A stretch of DNA of 6,620 bases from Chloroflexota bacterium (GTDB lineage Bacteria; Chloroflexota; Anaerolineae; Promineifilales; Promineifilaceae): NCBI GenBank assembly GCA_008501785.1, contig QQUD01000821.1, forward strand, positions 1 through 6,620. Direction: 5' to 3'. A program made the position numbers and the translations under genes. The stretch's first letter is position 1, and every line of letters begins with the position of its first letter. Positions 275-6,620 of the stretch are shown here, in pieces. The notes beneath the pieces were generated by a model that saw nothing but the letters and a program-made list of their open reading frames with translations, was not told where the DNA came from and searched no databases.

Positions 275-312
275 GCAGGTGAGGAGGAAACGGCCGTTTC
301 TTCCTCACCTGC
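275..312. repeat. 38-bp intergenic palindrome centred on ACGGCCGT; possible terminator or protein-binding site
   Basis: The two 19-base arms (275-293 and 294-312) are complementary at 18 of 19 positions. The exception, 286 against 301, is a G.T mismatch that becomes a G.U pair in RNA. The centre is the octamer ACGGCCGT (290-297). Transcribed, it would form a very stable hairpin 31 nt after the amidohydrolase stop. No run of T follows, so it is not a classical intrinsic terminator. It also lies directly upstream of the trpB promoter, so an operator role is possible. A REP-like or MITE-like dispersed element is a third option. Confidence 0.8.
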
Positions 313-328
313 CCATTATCTACATCGT

Positions 329-337
329 TGCTATAAT
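329..337 (+). promoter_or_regulatory. Extended -10 promoter for trpB
   Basis: A perfect TATAAT (332-337) is preceded by TG at 329-330 with one base between, the extended -10 arrangement that can work without a good -35. No convincing -35 lies 16-18 bp upstream, where the palindrome ends. Transcription would start near 344, giving a leader of about 25 nt. The leader holds the ribosome binding site AAAGGA (356-361), 7 nt before the trpB ATG. The leader is too short for an attenuator or leader peptide. Confidence 0.6.
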
Positions 338-368
338 CCAATCAACACTTTTTTGAAAGGATTTAGCG

Positions 369-1589
369 ATGTCAAAACCTGATTCGACAACCCCTCCCTC
401 AGTTCCCGACGCACGCGGCAAATTTGGACCGTATGGTGGTCAATTCGTACCCGAAACCCTCATGCCTGCTGTTGAGCAGCTTATTCAAGCCTACGATGAG
501 GCGCGAAACGATGCGCAATTTATGGCTGAATTTGAGCATCTATTGCACCATTACGTGGGACGGCCGTCACCCATCACGCACGCCAAACGACTCTCACAAA
601 TGCTGGGTGGGGCGCAAATCTACCTCAAGCGAGAAGATTTGAATCACTCTGGCGCTCACAAAATCAATAATGCACTGGGACAAGCGCTGTTAGCCAAGCG
701 CATGGGTAAGCATCGCATTGTTGCCGAAACAGGTGCGGGGCAGCATGGTGTCGGCAGTGCTACAGCTTGCGCGTTACTGGGGTTGGAATGCATCGTCTAC
801 ATGGGCAGTGTCGATATTGCGCGGCAGCAGCCAAATGTGTATCGCATGAAGCTGCTGGGTGCCAAAGTGGTGCCGGTTAAAAGCGGCAGCAAAACTTTAA
901 AAGACGCCATTAACGAAGCAATTCGAGATTGGGTAACAAACGTCGAGTCTACGCACTACTTACTCGGTTCAGTCCTTGGTCCGCATCCGTATCCGATGAT
1001 GGTGCGCGACTTTCAGAGTGTGATTGGCATTGAGGCGCGGCAGCAGATGTTGGATGGTTACGGCCGTTTACCCGACACCATCATCGCCTGCGTAGGTGGC
1101 GGCAGCAACGCCATGGGCATCTTCCACGCCTTCCGCGACGACGAAGAAATCGATCTGGTTGGGGTTGAAGCCGGGGGTGAAAGCATTGAAAGCGGCAGGC
1201 ATGCGGCTCGTTTTGCCGACTTGAACATTGCCCGCATTGGCGTTTTGCACGGCACCAAAAGCTACGTCATGCAAACATCCGATGGTCAAATCATGGAAAC
1301 GCACAGCATCAGCGCTGGCCTCGACTACCCCAGCGTGGGACCCGAACACGCATGGCTGCGCGATCAAGAACGTGCATTCTACACCTATGCCACCGATGAA
1401 GAAGCATTGGCGGCCTTCAAAACATTGTGTGAAACTGAAGGGATTATCCCCGCTTTAGAATCCAGTCATGCCGTTGCCGAAGCAATCAAACTGGCTCCCA
1501 AAATGCAGCCCGATCAAACCATCTTGGTAAACTTGAGTGGTCGCGGCGATAAAGATTTGAATACGGTTATGAATGCGTTAGATTTATAA
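369..1589 (+). CDS. trpB: Tryptophan synthase beta chain
   Basis: This is a complete 406-residue TrpB, the normal length for the TrpB1 subtype. It is a PLP enzyme that condenses indole with L-serine to make L-tryptophan, usually in an alpha2beta2 complex with TrpA that channels indole. The N-terminal [14 protein letters not shown] signature spans about residues 18-30. The PLP Schiff-base lysine is K98 in H-K-I-N-N-A. The catalytic acid-base Glu is E120 in A-E-T-G-A-G-Q-H-G. The PLP phosphate loop G-G-G-S-N-A-M-G is at 243-250, L-D-Y-P-S-V-G-P at 318-325, and the cofactor-ring serine S390 in L-S-G-R-G-D-K-D. The ATG at 369 has AAAGGA 7 nt upstream. No active-site residue is missing, so it should be functional. 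No trpA is adjacent: the next gene is a DUF218 protein 5 nt downstream. Two ACGGCCGT octamers lie inside the gene (560, 1060). Confidence 0.97.
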
Positions 1590-1594
1590 GCAGT

Positions 1595-2185
1595 ATGATT
1601 GAAACACTTTCAGTAATTTTTGTCTGTTTGCTATTAATTTATCTGCTTCTGTTGTGGCTTGGATTCTGGTTGCGACATGAATCAAGATTTGACAAACCGG
1701 CAGATGCCGCCATTGTGATGGGGTCTTTCCCCATGAAAGCATTGCCACGGGTGCAGAAGGCGGCCCAACTATATCATCAAGGATTGGTACGTAAATTGAT
1801 CCTATCCGGCAAACCGCTCAATGGAACTTTGACTGAAGCACAGTGGATGTATCAAGAAGCTACCAAGTTAGGTGTCCCGAAAGTCGATCTAATTCTTGAG
1901 GAATGTGCAACCAATAGTAAAGAAAATATGCTGTACGCTCGCCCAATTATTGAGAAGCACAATTTCAAGTCAGTTATTATTATTCAACAAGAGTTTTCGC
2001 AAGTTCGTGGCTTTTTAACAGCCAAAAAGCAATTTGCAGATTTGTCGCTGCGGTTAATCAACCAACCAGCTTCAGCCGAACCATATTGGAATCGTTGGAC
2101 CTGGATGTTTCATAGAATTGGTTGGCGCTATACCTGGACAACCGTGTCACGTCTTTTCAAATATCGTTTGAAAGGAGACATATAA
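1595..2185 (+). CDS. DUF218 / YdcF-SanA-like membrane-anchored protein
   Basis: This 196-residue protein begins with one hydrophobic segment (about residues 5-25, rich in L, I and V) and continues as a single soluble domain. The domain follows the DUF218 pattern: D-A-A-I-V-M-G-S strand (about 37-44), an R-x-x-K-A-A-x-L-Y helix, L-I-L-S-G-K strand, E-A-x-x-M helix, L-G-V-P, a late L-E-E-C-A-T-N-S-K-E-N motif (the usual T/S-x-N-T-x-E-N), then a buried I-I-I strand and Q-Q-E-F-S-Q-V-R. Members such as YdcF and SanA are linked to envelope integrity, but their chemistry is unsettled, so no function is assigned. The family's usual histidine (F-H-x-x-R) is Ser here. The ATG lies 5 nt after the trpB stop with no clear ribosome binding site, suggesting translational coupling to trpB. 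Confidence 0.8.
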   Translation: MIETLSVIFVCLLLIYLLLLWLGFWLRHESRFDKPADAAIVMGSFPMKALPRVQKAAQLYHQGLVRKLILSGKPLNGTLTEAQWMYQEATKLGVPKVDLILEECATNSKENMLYARPIIEKHNFKSVIIIQQEFSQVRGFLTAKKQFADLSLRLINQPASAEPYWNRWTWMFHRIGWRYTWTTVSRLFKYRLKGDI

Positions 2186-2209
2186 AAAACGGCCCAATCC
2201 ATCAACGAT

Positions 2210-2476
2210 TCATGTGATTCTCAATTCGTAACGAGCACCTGCTTGCATCATCTGACGTACAACGATGTGGTGAAACGGCCGTTCTTCCGGCACCCCTTCC
2301 TGCTTCATCCCCAACAAACGAACAAACCCCCAGCGCACGGCATATAAAAAAATAAGCCACCCAGGATGATAAGACATCATACCCGCAATAAACAAACGCA
2401 TCGGTAAATCCGCCGCAACCGTGACAGAGCAATCGAAGGCATCATTTGCTCTCTGCCAACCAAAATAGTGGACATC
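2210..2476 (-). pseudogene. Decayed small gene, probably DUF2867-like, with an internal deletion
   Basis: On the minus strand one frame stays open from 2476 (just after an in-frame TAA at 2479-2477) to TGA at 2212-2210, 88 codons. It has no start codon before the ATG at 2401, which has no good ribosome binding site. The first part reads like the N-terminal half of DUF2867 proteins: D-A-F-D-C-S-V-T-V-A-A-D-L-P, then P-G-W-L-I-F-L-Y-A-V-R-W-G-F-V-R-L-L-G-M-K. The end, P-F-H-H-I-V-V-R-Q-M-M, looks like that family's C-terminal P-F-H-x-x-I-V motif, but the central part that should lie between is missing. The two parts meet at the ACGGCCGT copy at 2275-2282, which encodes R-P flanked by E and F. 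Further upstream the same frame has more stops. The family match is from memory of the pattern and is uncertain; an intact 63-aa protein from 2401 is the alternative. It is convergent with the DUF218 gene, 24 bp away. Confidence 0.4.
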
Positions 2477-2548
2477 TTATCTAAGTTTTCACGCAAATTT
2501 CCCATTGATTAGGTAAGTGGTCATAATGATCATCGTTCTCAAGCATTG

Positions 2549-2554
2549 TATAAT
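2549..2554 (+). promoter_or_regulatory. Likely -10 element of the histidine kinase operon
   Basis: A perfect TATAAT sits about 55 bp before the kinase start in AT-rich DNA. No good -35 is visible at normal spacing (the 16-18 bp options are close to ATGATC/TGATCA), so an activator or an alternative start is possible. The rest of 2477-2608 shows no RNA gene or other repeat. Confidence 0.4.
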
Positions 2555-2608
2555 TTTACAGTTAACCACATGTTGTTTAGCAATTAATGACCGAGTTTGG
2601 AAATGATT

Positions 2609-4015
2609 ATGCAAAAATCAATAACAAAAACACAACCCCGAAACAGCTTCTTGCACAATTTGAACAAAATACTGGATGTTCAAAAAAGTGATGCAGATGC
2701 CCAACGACGTTCGAAGATACTTAATGTCATGTTATTTGGGGTGTTAGTGCTTATTATTATTGCTTTTTTTGTAATCACTTTTATGTTAATCATGGGATTG
2801 ATGAGCCGTTCAGATACGGATATTTTCTATAGCGCCTTATCAGTGTCAGCAGGCATCATAGCCATCAGTTATCTGATAAACCGGCGTTACTCTGAAGAAT
2901 TAGCGGCTTCCATCTTCTTATTATTTCTGTCAACCCTGTTCTATCTTACCGACACTCCCTATGAATCTATTTGGGGTCAAAACATGATTGTGATGGCGCT
3001 TCCTGTCATTATGGCAAGCGTCATCCTGCGCCCTACATCTAGTTTTATCGTAGCAACCGCCCTAAACATTTTCTTTATTATTGTTTCTGCAACGCAATCT
3101 TTTTCTGCAAACTATGTCGGCATGTTAGCCTATTATTCAATCGCATTTGTTGCATGGCTCTCAGCTAGCACGTTGGAAAATGCACTTAAAGATTTAAGAA
3201 TCTTAAATCAAGAATTGGATGTTCGTGTGGTCAACAGAACCAAAGAGCTGCAAATCGCAAATTCAGAACTGCGTCAAGCACGTGACAAAGCAATTGAAGC
3301 AAGCGTTTTTAAAAGTCAACTAACCGCCAAAGCCAGCCATGAACTCCGTACACCGCTTGGATCCATCATTGGATTTTCCGAAATGTTGCGTGGTGGGCAT
3401 TTTGGCGCGGTCAACGAAAACCAAAAGAAACGATTAACAAAAATTATTGATATAACCAATCACCTCACCAAACTCATTAATAATTGGCTAGACCAGGCGC
3501 AGCTTGAATCTGGAAGACTCAAACTGAACATCCATCCTTTCTCGGTGCGTCAGTTATCTGAATCCGTTGCAGATACGATGCTGGTTCTTACACAAGAAAA
3601 AGAGCTAAATTTTAGTTGCCGTGTTGAAAAAGAATTCCCTCCGGTTATCTTTGGAGATGAAGATCGGCTACATCAAATTTTGGTCAATTTGATAGGAAAC
3701 GCGATAAAATATACAGATAAAGGGTCTATTCACTCACAAATATACCTACCCGATGAGAATCACTGGGCAATCGCTATAAAAGATAGTGGTTGTGGAATCT
3801 CAGTGGATGCGTTACCATTTATTTTTGAATCTTTTCATCAGGTTGATGGTACTCGAACCCGAAAACATGAAGGGTTTGGATTGGGTCTATCAATTGTGAA
3901 ACAGTTGGTTGACCTGATGGAGGGAGAAATATATGTGGACAGTCAAGTAAATAAAGGCAGCACCTTTACTGTGGTTTTGCCTTTAATGCCAGTATCAGAA
4001 AAACAAATAGGATAG
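2609..4015 (+). CDS. Membrane sensor histidine kinase with six predicted TM helices
   Basis: This is a 468-residue kinase counted from the ATG at 2609. That start is preferred over TTG 2597 and ATG 2603 because GGA at 2599-2601 is then 7 nt upstream. A polar N-terminus is followed by six predicted membrane helices (about 38-65, 72-90, 97-113, 125-140, 145-162, 168-187) with no sizeable extracellular loop and no recognised sensor domain. A charged coiled-coil-like linker (about 188-236) replaces HAMP or PAS. The kinase core is complete: H box S-H-E-L-R-T-P-L with phospho-acceptor H244, N box N-L-I-G-N-A (N360/N364), G1 D-S-G-C-G (392-396), F box F-I-F-E-S-F (404-409) and G2 G-F-G-L-G-L-S-I-V (422-430). 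It should autophosphorylate and pass phosphate to the receiver encoded 6 nt downstream. The membrane-embedded sensor suggests a signal in or near the bilayer (inference). Base composition is visibly AT-richer than trpB and the ABC genes. Confidence 0.93.
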   Translation: MQKSITKTQPRNSFLHNLNKILDVQKSDADAQRRSKILNVMLFGVLVLIIIAFFVITFMLIMGLMSRSDTDIFYSALSVSAGIIAISYLINRRYSEELAASIFLLFLSTLFYLTDTPYESIWGQNMIVMALPVIMASVILRPTSSFIVATALNIFFIIVSATQSFSANYVGMLAYYSIAFVAWLSASTLENALKDLRILNQELDVRVVNRTKELQIANSELRQARDKAIEASVFKSQLTAKASHELRTPLGSIIGFSEMLRGGHFGAVNENQKKRLTKIIDITNHLTKLINNWLDQAQLESGRLKLNIHPFSVRQLSESVADTMLVLTQEKELNFSCRVEKEFPPVIFGDEDRLHQILVNLIGNAIKYTDKGSIHSQIYLPDENHWAIAIKDSGCGISVDALPFIFESFHQVDGTRTRKHEGFGLGLSIVKQLVDLMEGEIYVDSQVNKGSTFTVVLPLMPVSEKQIG

Positions 4016-4021
4016 TTGCAC

Positions 4022-4393
4022 ATGAATAATCAGTTCGCTCTAATTGTTGAAGATAATGAAGATACCGCAGAGATTTTTGAAGCGGCATTTATTGAAGCTG
4101 GATTTCAAACTGAAGTTATTAGCGATGGGCAAACTGCCATGTATCGATTGCAAAAAACGGTTCCAAATCTGCTATTACTCGATCTTCACTTGCCATCCTT
4201 ATCGGGCGACAAGATTCTTGATAACATTATTAAAGATGAAAGATTAGCAGATATGCGTGTTATTGTAGCCAGTGCTGATGGTCAATTAGCAACTTATCAG
4301 GGCATGAAAAACAAAGATAAATTGATGATCTTGCAAAAGCCAGTTAGTTTTGATCAGCTCACCATTTTGGCAAAGCGACTTGCCAAAGCCTAA
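4022..4393 (+). CDS. Stand-alone receiver-domain response regulator
   Basis: This 123-residue protein is a single REC domain with no output domain. All phosphorylation residues are in place: the acidic pair E10-D11 in I-V-E-D-N, phospho-acceptor D54 in L-L-L-D-L-H-L-P, the switch Ser S84 in V-A-S-A-D (Thr or Ser in the family), and K106-P107 in L-Q-K-P. ATG 4022 is chosen over the in-frame TTG at 4016 because AGGA at 4009-4012, inside the end of the kinase gene, is 9 nt upstream. It lies 6 nt after the kinase stop, so the two form an operon and almost certainly a cognate pair. With no DNA-binding or enzymatic part it must act through protein contacts or a phosphorelay; the target is not in this window. 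Confidence 0.93.
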   Translation: MNNQFALIVEDNEDTAEIFEAAFIEAGFQTEVISDGQTAMYRLQKTVPNLLLLDLHLPSLSGDKILDNIIKDERLADMRVIVASADGQLATYQGMKNKDKLMILQKPVSFDQLTILAKRLAKA

Positions 4394-4401
4394 TCTGTAT
4401 G

Positions 4402-4435
4402 ATGTGAGATGATACGGCCGTTTCCCCTCCCACAT
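4402..4435. repeat. Imperfect palindrome around ACGGCCGT downstream of the receiver gene
   Basis: ATGTG (4402-4406) pairs with CACAT (4431-4435) and the core ACGGCCGT (4414-4421) pairs with itself; the stretch between is only partly complementary and needs bulges. It begins 8 nt after the receiver stop. It shares the G-T-G-A-G start, core and C-A-C end with the 275-312 palindrome, which suggests two members of one element family at different stages of decay. A terminator role is possible, but no T-tract follows. Confidence 0.35.
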
Positions 4436-4514
4436 TCCACCCAGCAAAATATCATAAAATGAGTTTTTCCTGAGACAATGTGACCCTAGCACTGTGCTTA
4501 CTGATCATTACGGG

Positions 4515-4543
4515 TAGACAAAGTAGCATTTTTAGCATAAAAT
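4515..4543 (+). promoter_or_regulatory. Sigma70-type promoter for the ABC exporter operon
   Basis: TAGACA (4515-4520, 5 of 6 to TTGACA) and TAAAAT (4538-4543, 5 of 6 to TATAAT) are separated by exactly 17 bp. Transcription would begin near 4550, immediately before the 22-bp inverted repeat, giving a leader of about 37 nt. Confidence 0.65.
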
Positions 4544-4552
4544 GGAAGGCTG

Positions 4553-4574
4553 TTGTTAGACATTTGTCTAACAA
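4553..4574. promoter_or_regulatory. 22-bp perfect inverted repeat, probable repressor operator
   Basis: Two perfect 10-bp arms, TTGTTAGACA and TGTCTAACAA, flank a TT centre. It sits a few bases after the predicted start of transcription and one base before the strong ribosome binding site AAGGAGG (4576-4582). Size and position suit a dimeric repressor of the TetR, MarR or PadR kind that commonly controls multidrug ABC exporters; I cannot say which. As RNA it would form a stem abutting the ribosome binding site, so post-transcriptional control is the alternative. Confidence 0.65.
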
Positions 4575-4586
4575 GAAGGAGGAACT

Positions 4587-6422
4587 ATGCCAGAAAATGG
4601 TATACAAAACCCTGACCCTACCCCTGCTAATAAACTAAAAGTTTATCAGCGGCTATTTGGGTATTTACGGCCGTATTGGAAACAAGTCCTCATCGGTTAT
4701 ACAGGCATGTTGGCCGCTGCGGGACTCAACCTCATCGTCCCTCAAATCATCGAAGATGCCATTGACAATGGTCTGGCAGCCGGGGATCCCGCAGCCTTGT
4801 TCATCGCGGGTGGCATCATTTTAGTGATTGCCTTCGTGCGCGGCATCGCTGCCTTTGGGCAAAGGTTCTATGGCGAATGGCTCACTTTCCGCGTCGCATA
4901 CGACCTGCGCAATCACTTCTACAACAGCGTTCAATACCTACCGTTCTCATTTCATGATCGCAGCCACACGGGCGACATGATGAGCCGCGCTACCAGCGAC
5001 GTCACTGAAACAGAGCGGTTTATCGGCATTGGGTTGATGGATTTATCGGCCACCTTATTGTTGTTGTTCGGCGTTATTGGGGCCATGCTGTGGGAAAATT
5101 GGCAGCTTTCGCTGTATGTAATGGGGCCATTCATCATTTTGGTCATTGCCACAACACGCTTTGGTAACACGGTTCGCCCCATGTTCAAGGGCATTCAAGA
5201 GCAGATGGGCGTGCTCTCAACCACCATGCAAGAAAGCATGACAGGTATTCGCGTGGTCAAGGCGTTTGCCCGGGAACCCTATGAATTGCAGAAATTTGAC
5301 AAAGAAAATGATGGGTGGTTTGACCGTCGCTATACCCTCATCCAAACATGGGCAAACAACTGGCCCTTCTTCACCTTCCTCGTTTCGATTAGCATCTTTT
5401 TATTGCTATGGTTCGGTGGCCCAAGTGCGATTGCGGGTGAAATTACCATTGGTTCTCTCTTCGCGCTAATTTCGTATGTGCTCATGATGGCTGCACCCGT
5501 ACAGCGACTGGGTTTTTTAGTCAACTTAGCTGCAACAGCAGGAGCCAGCGCGGGACGTGTTTTTGCGATTATGGATACTCCTAATGAGGTTGCAGACCGA
5601 TCTGATGCTATTGAGTTAACGAATGCGAATGGTGATGTAGTCTTTGAAAACGTGGGGTTCTCTTATCGGGAAGGGGTGAATGTCCTCGAAGACGTCAGTT
5701 TCTATGCTTCACCAGGGCAAAAGGTGGCGCTGATTGGCCCCACCGGCTCAGGCAAATCAACCGTAACTAATTTGATCCCCCGATTTTACGAGGCCAGTGC
5801 CGGACGTATTTTGATTGATGGGCATGATGTGCGCGATTTGACGCTGCACAGTTTGCGAAAACATATCGGTATTGTCCTGCAAGACCCGTTTTTGTTTAGT
5901 CAAACAGTGGCCGAGAATATTGCATACGGCCGTCCCAACGCCACCAACGCAGAAATTGAAGCGGCAGCAAAAGCAGCTCGTGCTTATGACTTTATTCAAG
6001 AGCTGCCAGATGGATTAGATACGCGCACCGGTGAACGAGGTGTCAATCTAAGTGGCGGACAAAAGCAGCGTATTGCCATCGCCCGCGCCTTGATTACAGA
6101 CCCGCGCATCTTAATTCTGGATGATTCGACCAGCAGTGTAGACACTGAAACTGAGCATTTGATTCAACAAGCGCTCGAAGTGCTGATGGAAGGACGCACA
6201 ACCTTTATCATCGCACAGCGCCTGCTTACGCTAAAGAATGCGGATTATATTTTGGTGTTGGATAACGGCCGTATTGTCGAACGCGGCAAACACGATACCC
6301 TGCTGGCAAACAATGGCCTGTACAAAGAAATTTACGACTTGCAGTTAAAAGATCAGGAAGAGTTTGTGGCGCTGCAAGAGCGGATGGCGGTAGATGGGTT
6401 TACCGACCACGAGGTGAACTAA
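4587..6422 (+). CDS. ABC exporter half-transporter with degenerate ATP site (TM287-like subunit)
   Basis: This is a complete 611-residue type IV ABC exporter half: a cytoplasmic elbow (L-F-G-Y-L-R-P-Y-W, about 23-31), six membrane helices (roughly 34-51, 71-90, 148-168, 172-190, 258-276, 286-303), then the nucleotide-binding domain. Walker A G-P-T-G-S-G-K-S-T is at 384-392, Q-loop Gln at 432, signature L-S-G-G-Q at 488-492, and Walker B L-I-L-D-D with the D-loop S-S-V-D near 509-519. Two residues depart from the canonical site: the catalytic Glu after Walker B is Asp (D513) and the H-loop His is Gln (Q544 in I-A-Q-R). This pair is typical of the subunit that forms the degenerate site in heterodimeric exporters such as TM287/288. 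It probably exports drugs or lipids; the substrate is unknown. The start is firm: AAGGAGG (4576-4582) is 4 nt upstream. One base separates it from the next ABC gene. Confidence 0.95.
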   Translation: MPENGIQNPDPTPANKLKVYQRLFGYLRPYWKQVLIGYTGMLAAAGLNLIVPQIIEDAIDNGLAAGDPAALFIAGGIILVIAFVRGIAAFGQRFYGEWLTFRVAYDLRNHFYNSVQYLPFSFHDRSHTGDMMSRATSDVTETERFIGIGLMDLSATLLLLFGVIGAMLWENWQLSLYVMGPFIILVIATTRFGNTVRPMFKGIQEQMGVLSTTMQESMTGIRVVKAFAREPYELQKFDKENDGWFDRRYTLIQTWANNWPFFTFLVSISIFLLLWFGGPSAIAGEITIGSLFALISYVLMMAAPVQRLGFLVNLAATAGASAGRVFAIMDTPNEVADRSDAIELTNANGDVVFENVGFSYREGVNVLEDVSFYASPGQKVALIGPTGSGKSTVTNLIPRFYEASAGRILIDGHDVRDLTLHSLRKHIGIVLQDPFLFSQTVAENIAYGRPNATNAEIEAAAKAARAYDFIQELPDGLDTRTGERGVNLSGGQKQRIAIARALITDPRILILDDSTSSVDTETEHLIQQALEVLMEGRTTFIIAQRLLTLKNADYILVLDNGRIVERGKHDTLLANNGLYKEIYDLQLKDQEEFVALQERMAVDGFTDHEVN

Positions 6423-6423
6423 C

Positions 6424-6620
6424 ATGACGAATCAAAATGGAAATGGAAACAGAAACAGAAACGGCCGTTTTTTCCACAGATTTGAACCAGGGCTAAGCTT
6501 AGAAGAGCAAGAAGCACGTCGGCGTCGAGAAGATCGCATTCGGACCTTGTTGAATGATGAAGACGAGATGCTGGGGAAGGCGTATGACGGCCGTTTAGTG
6601 CGGCGGCTTCTGCAATTTGT
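6424..6620 (+). CDS. Second ABC exporter subunit, N-terminal fragment (3' end outside window)
   Basis: The frame is open from ATG 6424 to the window end (65 whole codons). GAGGTG (6411-6416), within the end of the previous gene, lies 7 nt upstream, and one base separates the two genes, so they are surely co-translated. The N-terminus is low complexity (alternating Asn with Gly or Arg, residues 5-14), then comes a charged helix rich in E and R. The last residues, L-G-K-A-Y-D-G-R-L-V-R-R-L-L-Q-F-V, match the pre-helix elbow found before the first membrane segment in many TM288-type exporter subunits. Context makes it the likely heterodimer partner that would carry the intact catalytic Glu and His; those residues are beyond the window. 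ACGGCCGT occurs twice in its first 171 bp (6461, 6587). Confidence 0.75.
   Translation, partial: MTNQNGNGNRNRNGRFFHRFEPGLSLEEQEARRRREDRIRTLLNDEDEMLGKAYDGRLVRRLLQF
6436..6465 (+). repeat. In-frame hexanucleotide repeat (Asn-Gly/Asn-Arg) at the start of the second ABC gene
   Basis: Five imperfect 6-bp units (AATGGA twice, AACAGA twice, AACGGC once) encode Asn-Gly, Asn-Gly, Asn-Arg, Asn-Arg, Asn-Gly. Copy-number change would keep the frame. The last unit runs into the ACGGCCGT copy at 6461-6468. Confidence 0.7.

Follow-up and report, generated by a model that had tools for sequence, protein, structure and literature searches.

Why does an 8-bp palindrome, ACGGCCGT, occur ten times within 6,620 nucleotides of bacterial DNA, in genes of unrelated function as well as between them? 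The stretch that raises this question, which we refer to as the window, comprises positions 1 to 6,620 of contig QQUD01000821.1 (assembly GCA_008501785.1, a Chloroflexota bacterium of the Promineifilaceae), and its proteins are closest to those of Chloroflexota, Anaerolineae. As described below, ACGGCCGT is, like the HIP1 of cyanobacteria, a highly iterated palindrome (HIP), with another sequence and in another phylum. We further consider it probable that a NotI-type methyltransferase, here called H and mostly present without its endonuclease, has the octamer as its target, and that a uniform force on each site has led to the accumulation of copies.

The octamer is iterated across the genomes of relatives

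The ten copies in the window, which a sequence-only reading had singled out as a large excess, compare with an average of 0.07 in 200 dinucleotide shuffles, none of which gave more than 2. Three sites are intergenic and seven lie in coding sequence (trpB, an ABC transporter gene, and the beginning of another open frame), where they occupy two of the three possible phases (YGR, NGR, or DGR in one, and xRP in the other); the motif is indeed spread over intergenic DNA and unrelated genes in different frames, as that reading had it. It also held that no CGGCCG occurs outside the octamer, which is so in the window (10 of 10 fall inside ACGGCCGT) but fails in relatives: in 202 kb of one such genome, G007, 461 of 761 CGGCCG hexamers belong to octamers.

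Genome-wide counts were made in the genomes of relatives rather than in that of the window itself. A scan of public genomes with the window's ABC transporter gave 35 loci, and ACGGCCGT is the most over-represented palindromic 8-mer in nine of them (L001, L002, L004, L006, L007, L014, L027, L028, and L034, the last with just 2 copies). Over whole genomes, G001 to G007 carry 5,641 to 12,611 copies and G008 carries 2,887, compared with 149 to 296 copies of the reversed motif. A class-level draw of 298 genomes contains eight octamer-rich ones, with 5,641 to 13,708 copies of ACGGCCGT and 56 to 229 of the related TCGGCCGA, and 287 genomes with fewer than 1,000 ACGGCCGT. Three genomes (G168, G220, and G297) show 1,189 to 2,982 ACGGCCGT together with 771 to 1,326 TCGGCCGA, and we therefore treat them as enriched at the level of the hexamer CGGCCG and not as octamer-rich. 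All told, 13 relatives hold 5,641 to 13,708 copies each (approximately 1.1 to 2.1 per kb; reversed-motif control, 96 to 255), a genome-wide over-representation in the tens-fold range that lies far above the control and is not limited to the window.

In two further genomes another palindrome takes the place of ACGGCCGT: G011, which is among those of the class, has 7,668 copies of TCGGCCGA and 85 of ACGGCCGT, and G197, whose octamer turned up through our sampling of genomes that carry H, has 122 copies of GCGGCCGC in 79 kb where 2.1 are expected. These octamers occur at densities similar to that of ACGGCCGT and differ from it in the outer base around CGGCCG (A in ACGGCCGT, T in TCGGCCGA, and G in GCGGCCGC). 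In what follows, the octamer-rich set consists of these 15 genomes (13 with ACGGCCGT, plus G011 and G197). Searches of the open-licence PubMed Central literature brought up neither HIPs in Chloroflexota nor ACGGCCGT as such a motif; the exact sequence appeared there in a DNA-encryption context only.

A similar per-site force in all reading phases

Taking simple open frames of at least 120 aa as genes, we compared the spelling of each compatible peptide context with that expected from codon usage. In 202 kb of G007, Thr-Ala-Val (TAV) is spelled ACGGCCGTN in 204 of 208 cases (34 expected), [NDHY]GR is spelled as the octamer in 135 of 162 (8.5 expected), and compatible xRP contexts are in 58 of 85 (1.5 expected); the pooled counts for the same three contexts in six octamer-poor genomes are 3 of 14, 1 of 61, and 0 of 34. 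The tripeptide itself is far commoner in G007, at 208 per 202 kb compared with 14 per 262 kb in the octamer-poor controls, and the octamer therefore alters proteins. Expressed as natural-logarithm (ln) odds over the codon-usage expectation, the excess is 3.9 to 6.1 across the three phases for ACGGCCGT in G007, G260, G210, and G150, and 3.9 to 4.5 for TCGGCCGA in G011 and GCGGCCGC in G197. Intergenic DNA is similarly affected, with 2.0 octamers per kb in G007 (approximately 0.03 expected) and 0.8 to 1.6 per kb in G260, G210, G011, and G197; the density in G150 is low (0.21 per kb, from 3 sites). Sites of this kind are found, in other words, in coding and intergenic DNA, in all phases, and in unrelated genes. 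The pull on the octamer is similar in all three phases and in the intergenic DNA of G007, which supports the earlier proposal that selection or a copying bias acts on the DNA itself.

The same test applied to HIP1 on the Synechocystis plasmid pSYSM (100 kb) yields ln odds of 4.6, 2.9, and 4.5, with HIP1 sites present between genes and in every phase, so that the force in Chloroflexota is of the same kind and size. Compatible positions are filled to 51%–98% in Chloroflexota, compared with 16%–82% for HIP1 on pSYSM, a plasmid that may be less filled than the chromosome. The force is thereby measured at approximately 4 to 6 ln odds per site, in every phase, for six genomes, and a per-site force of this kind changes protein sequences on a large scale.

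The spacing of octamers is near Poisson (coefficients of variation 1.23 and 0.96), which rules out regular spacing or control of density as the basis of the pattern. In G007 and G260, the one-off neighbours of the octamer that exceed expectation differ from it mainly at positions 1 and 8 (in G260 one inner neighbour is also up by approximately 2 fold); 22 kb of the TCGGCCGA genome showed no clear excess of one-off neighbours.

A zinc-ribbon methyltransferase accompanies the octamer

The sequence-only reading had suggested a search for an orphan methyltransferase, and such a search leads to H, a zinc-ribbon DNA methyltransferase of approximately 660 aa with the motifs DPMMGGGTT and TDPPY(F/Y)DSxQY and conserved cysteine pairs, which is present in 14 of the 15 octamer-rich genomes (partial in G003; in two pieces in G005, G011, and G230). 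The protein matches Pfam family PF01555 weakly and in permuted order. Its AlphaFold2 model has a pLDDT of 87.7; a fold search returned weak matches to methyltransferase domains alone (the best to CcrM, E 2e-3), and the search of the PDB turned up no solved structure for this family. Among the matches to plasmid proteins listed (8 of 131), H aligns at 28%–31% with zinc-ribbon enzymes annotated as DNA methyltransferase or DUF1156. In G011, the TCGGCCGA genome, H (within G011:C1:574001–582000) is read as two overlapping frames, and the split may be a sequencing error or a broken gene.

In the class draw, with scoring limited to four candidates per genome, 32 of 298 genomes have H at an identity of at least 49%, either full length or split in two. 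It occurs in 8 of 9 genomes rich in ACGGCCGT or TCGGCCGA, compared with 24 of the 289 remaining ones (Fisher p = 6e-8, with kinship ignored). Short pieces in four further genomes of the draw (G084, G225, G145, and G148) were excluded from the tables and tree of H. Beyond the draw, H is present in G002 to G006, also in the CGGCCG-enriched genomes G009, G012, G013, G015, and G016, and as a piece in G008.

A tree of 41 of the 43 H proteins (excluding G008 and G015) shows three groups. One clade of 11 rows (support 100/98) holds octamer genomes alone: nine with ACGGCCGT, one with TCGGCCGA, and one with GCGGCCGC. A second (89/89) joins eight hexamer-enriched genomes with three ACGGCCGT genomes, and a third, of 13 rows (99/98), comes from genomes without CGGCCG enrichment. 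G003 and G005 are sisters in the ABC transporter tree and are both rich in ACGGCCGT, but their H proteins belong to different sub-clades; H and the octamer were therefore not simply inherited together with the ABC gene.

H often adjoins a NotI-family endonuclease gene

In G005, G260, and G197, the gene before H encodes a NotI-family endonuclease (PF12183; E 9e-55, 1e-52, and 5e-11, respectively). Among 80 genomes surveyed for PF12183, 19 have a match: 17 of the 47 in which H is present, wholly or in part, and 2 of the 33 that lack it. Because the family adjoins H in 16 of the 17 genomes that have both (16 of the 19 genomes with a NotI-family gene thus have it beside H; the exception among the 17 is G003, whose H ends at a contig edge), H appears from its gene neighbourhood to be a methyltransferase of NotI-family systems. 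NotI itself cuts GCGGCCGC, the same octamer that dominates G197.

In contrast to a classic NotI system, 11 of the 14 H-bearing octamer-rich genomes show no NotI-family gene beside H (these are draft genomes, with some H genes at contig ends), and the site is enriched rather than avoided. Ten of these 11 have no PF12183 match at all, and G003 has one elsewhere. Of the roles proposed from the sequence, the target of a solitary methyltransferase is on this evidence the best supported. Over 43 H-bearing genomes, CGGCCG reaches at least twice its expected count in 22 of 26 without an adjacent NotI-family gene, compared with 5 of the 17 that have such a neighbour (p = 4e-4; the 17 include a weak NotI-like match in G288 and an interrupted NotI frame in G209, and some of the stretches counted are short, from 3.7 kb upward). 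In G095, which has the endonuclease, CGGCCG is depleted (1 vs 12 expected). Over-representation, which that reading took as an argument against a simple restriction target, need not preclude restriction, since G005, G260, and G197 are octamer-rich with a NotI-family gene directly beside H.

Taken with the association and the tree, the NotI link makes ACGGCCGT most likely the recognition site of H. H would methylate the octamer, its specificity being deduced from these three lines of evidence, and the methylation would in turn give rise to the enrichment.

As a separate observation, a 20-kb stretch of another H-bearing genome with an adjacent NotI-like gene (L306, G254:C39) is enriched in GCCGGC (112 vs 27.5), possibly another iterated palindrome.

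NurA and HerA lie downstream of H in part of the family

Within the octamer clade of H, a NurA gene lies directly downstream of H in seven of the nine genomes with enough flank (identified by Pfam in G007, G004, G197, and G011, and by tblastn in G006, where it is a fragment, G230, and G005); the flanks of G002 and G260 stop at a contig edge. HerA follows further downstream in G011 (by Pfam) and G230 (a tblastn match). Between NurA and HerA in G011 stands a gene of approximately 210 aa, also matched in G230, G197, and G005, that has no Pfam match and is HAS-barrel-like by eye. Near the H genes of the other two clades we found no NurA within the flanks read (approximately 1.5 kb in most).

These elements suggest the following scheme. 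H would be the amino-methyltransferase of a NotI-family system, standing without its endonuclease in most octamer-rich genomes, and its preference would probably differ between lineages, giving an outer base of A, T, or G around CGGCCG. A uniform per-site force would favour the octamer wherever it can be formed, even where this alters the encoded amino acids, and would do so until the majority of compatible positions carry it. The methylated octamer would probably mark self DNA for recombination or repair. The most likely reader of the mark would be the HerA–NurA end-resection machinery, because its genes lie directly downstream of H in several genomes, and this resection is the most specific lead we have on the purpose of the mark. 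A fuller version, in which a NotI–H–NurA–HerA operon gives Chloroflexota a switchable HIP of their own (the methyltransferase self-marking NCGGCCGN, resection reading it in a Chi-like manner, and biased recombination filling positions), we regard as rather improbable in its entirety. If true, a switch in the outer-base preference of the enzyme would rewrite thousands of genomic sites.

Evidence that weighs against H as the writer

A number of observations count against assigning the octamer to H and a NotI-derived system. G150 is rich in ACGGCCGT (6,514 copies) with no H or NotI match found in it. Four genomes without H (G168, G297, G220, and G010) are 6 to 12 fold enriched in CGGCCG, with no dominant outer base around the hexamer, and likely have another writer; two without full H (G256 and G051) are enriched by approximately 3 fold. 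Conversely, G079, G170, G185, and G227 have H and no adjacent NotI-family gene, and show no CGGCCG enrichment (for G185, in a count from 3.7 kb alone). In the tree, the octamer-rich G001, G250, and G270 have an H that groups with those of hexamer-enriched genomes, and the TCGGCCGA row, G011, sits on a long branch whose place is unsure; as the octamer state does not strictly follow the clade of H, our confidence in the main reading is slightly lowered. G197 is not an independent test of the link, because its octamer was found by sampling H genomes, and the 80 genomes of the PF12183 survey were chosen to include known H genomes. NotI-family genes on three named plasmids adjoin other methyltransferases (annotated as adenine enzymes twice and as a cytosine enzyme once), so that membership of the family alone fixes no site. 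H could also track lineage rather than cause the enrichment, as the Fisher tests ignore kinship. Finally, NurA is not downstream of H in G210 and G003, both in the octamer clade, nor beside it in G001, G250, and G270.

Alternative explanations

The last of these points bears most directly on an account in which the octamer is itself a Chi-like or self-recognition site: HerA–NurA resection would stop or change at the methylated octamer, and strands carrying it would be spared and would overwrite alleles without it through biased gene conversion combined with selection. We hold this account to be possible but doubtful. It draws on the placement of NurA and HerA after H, and on the production of 3' tails by the bacterial NurA–HerA complex, as described for Deinococcus (PMC9960219); the five genomes lacking the linkage speak against it. 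The distribution of octamer-free DNA cuts both ways. In 180 kb of G007 the longest gaps (7.4, 3.7, and 2.1 kb) have lower GC and contain, by eye, a recombinase-like ORF and other island-like open reading frames (ORFs), as expected if sites build up in resident DNA, but in G260 the longest stretch free of octamers (4.9 kb) is close to average in GC, and its ORFs resemble housekeeping genes.

For how the sites arise, the main rival is methyl-directed mismatch repair. In Elhai's model of HIP1 (PMC4390886), a methylated site influences which strand mismatch repair corrects, and the outcome is a ratchet: mutations that create a site persist, mutations that destroy one are undone, and the palindrome is a by-product. 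Such a mutational bias fits a force that is much alike in all phases and between genes, the excess of one-off neighbours mainly at positions 1 and 8, and the many sites that change amino acids (the TAV counts above). Against it, the model predicts saturation at approximately 1 site per kb, and we observe up to 2.1 per kb, with most compatible sites filled and random spacing; the density objection is softened by HIP1 itself, which reaches 2.7 per kb (PMC4390886). The GmeC rule of the model alone, moreover, leaves the fixed A, T, or G outside CGGCCG unexplained. On balance we think it unlikely that the ratchet accounts for the octamer.

It is likewise unlikely, in our estimation, that H and the palindrome merely share ancestry and that another DNA-binding protein or methyltransferase maintains the octamer. 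The enriched genomes without H (G150, G168, G297, G220, and G010) favour this account, as does the presence in many of these genomes of three other PF01555 subfamilies, A (L076), B (L082), and C (L086). Each of the three, however, is missing from some octamer-rich genomes and turns up in octamer-poor ones as well; the NCBIfam models closest to them, which they match below cut-off, are for adenine-specific enzymes. The 5-methylcytosine (m5C) family PF00145 is no universal partner either: no match to it was seen in 8 of the 17 genomes that made up an initial octamer-rich set (from this set, G168, G220, and G297 were later reclassed as hexamer-level and G008 as low), nor in 6 of the 13 ACGGCCGT-rich genomes that were kept. 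G003 and G005, with H of different lineages and the same octamer, also speak against ancestry alone.

A DNA uptake tag kept by transformation, as in Neisseria and Pasteurellaceae, is very improbable: uptake sequences are likewise short motifs of the same order of density that alter the proteome, and the octamer does alter proteins, but they are not known to be palindromic or to occupy most compatible sites, unlike the strict palindrome seen here, with its random spacing, its largely filled compatible sites, and its outer-base variants inside a single methyltransferase clade.

Comparison with known systems

We return to H, with its probable site as a HIP, as the preferred reading. The parallel with HIP1 drawn from the sequence holds for density, presence in all frames and in intergenic DNA, outer-base neighbours, and alternate palindromes. 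In the passages of PMC4390886 that describe it, HIP1 (GCGATCGC) is an 8-bp palindrome at 300 to 2,700 copies per Mb in most HIP1 genomes, deviates mainly at positions 1 and 8, has relatives with a variant outer base (TCGATCGA), and occurs in genomes with resident methyltransferases; the Chloroflexota octamer is likewise an 8-bp palindrome with outer-base deviations and with outer-base variants in relatives. It is not HIP1 proper, which is GCGATCGC with GATC and CGATCG methyltransferases in cyanobacteria: the phylum differs, the core is CGGCCG, and the candidate enzyme is a zinc-ribbon amino-methyltransferase tied to NotI-family genes and, partly, to NurA–HerA. Methylomes of Chloroflexi from Lake Biwa have GANTC, TTAA, and GCWGC as the sole motifs given in the portion of PMC6329791 that treats them.

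Why cyanobacteria keep HIP1 is described in the same passages of PMC4390886 as a question still open. An independent HIP system in another phylum, with three octamers on one core, one candidate methyltransferase family, a link to a classic family of restriction enzymes, and a partial physical link to DNA end resection, opens that question to comparative tests, and the association with H is a lead on what maintains iterated palindromes.

Octamer sites in the window

The ten sites of the window are given here in its coordinates, with no strand assigned to any. The first, at 290–297, is intergenic and forms the apex of a hairpin with a 17-bp stem (275–312) between an upstream ORF and trpB; the hairpin folds at −31.5 kcal/mol (z −7.9) and may be a terminator. 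Two sites lie in trpB, at 560–567 (phase xRP, V-G-R-P-S) and at 1060–1067 (phase YGR), and two more are intergenic, at 2275–2282 and 4414–4421. A hairpin function for the octamer was set aside, as a strong fold accompanies only the site at 290 among the three intergenic ones, and in G007 the palindrome extends at least 5 bp past the octamer at only 3 of 402 sites.

The ABC transporter gene carries three sites. That at 4667–4674 (L-R-P-Y) is common to four of seven aligned octamer-rich relatives, and that at 6265–6272 (N-G-R) to three of seven. The site at 5926–5933 (I-A-Y-G-R-P) is, in the alignment of orthologues, ACGGCCGT in all eight octamer-rich sequences (the window included; 66%–95% nucleotide identity) and in none of ten others. 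The final two sites, at 6461–6468 (N-G-R) and 6587–6594 (D-G-R), belong to the next open frame.

Other candidates and neighbouring observations

The PF01555 subfamilies mentioned above, none of which is universal in or exclusive to octamer-rich genomes, have neighbourhoods of their own. Subfamily C often adjoins a PADLOC match to a type II endonuclease. Subfamily B adjoins a conserved gene of approximately 220 aa with at best a very weak endonuclease match; by eye, in loci of approximately eight genomes (L151, L154, and similar), this gene follows the methyltransferase and has no Pfam match, and it is perhaps an undescribed restriction endonuclease. For three m5C enzymes from enriched genomes that lack H, matches in the PDB fixed no specificity. 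Carriage of H by phages was also rejected, as six exact peptide patterns matched no viral contig and 50,697 phage records gave one weak match.

Restriction at GGCC was considered as a cause and dropped: four sampled octamer-poor genomes are strongly depleted in GGCC, and the enrichment is left unexplained by it. In these genomes (G154, G223, G091, and G229; L226–L237 and L242–L245) the depletion is 4 to 20 fold, as expected under GGCC restriction, and CGCGCG and GCGCGC are modestly enriched in the first three. A further palindrome, GGGCCC, is absent from the sampled stretches of G007 and G260 (L126–L145 and L028; 0 vs approximately 133 and 0 vs approximately 121 expected, respectively), where CGGCCG is enriched; these stretches avoid many other palindromic hexamers as well, and many of the remaining sampled genomes likewise have few copies of GGGCCC.

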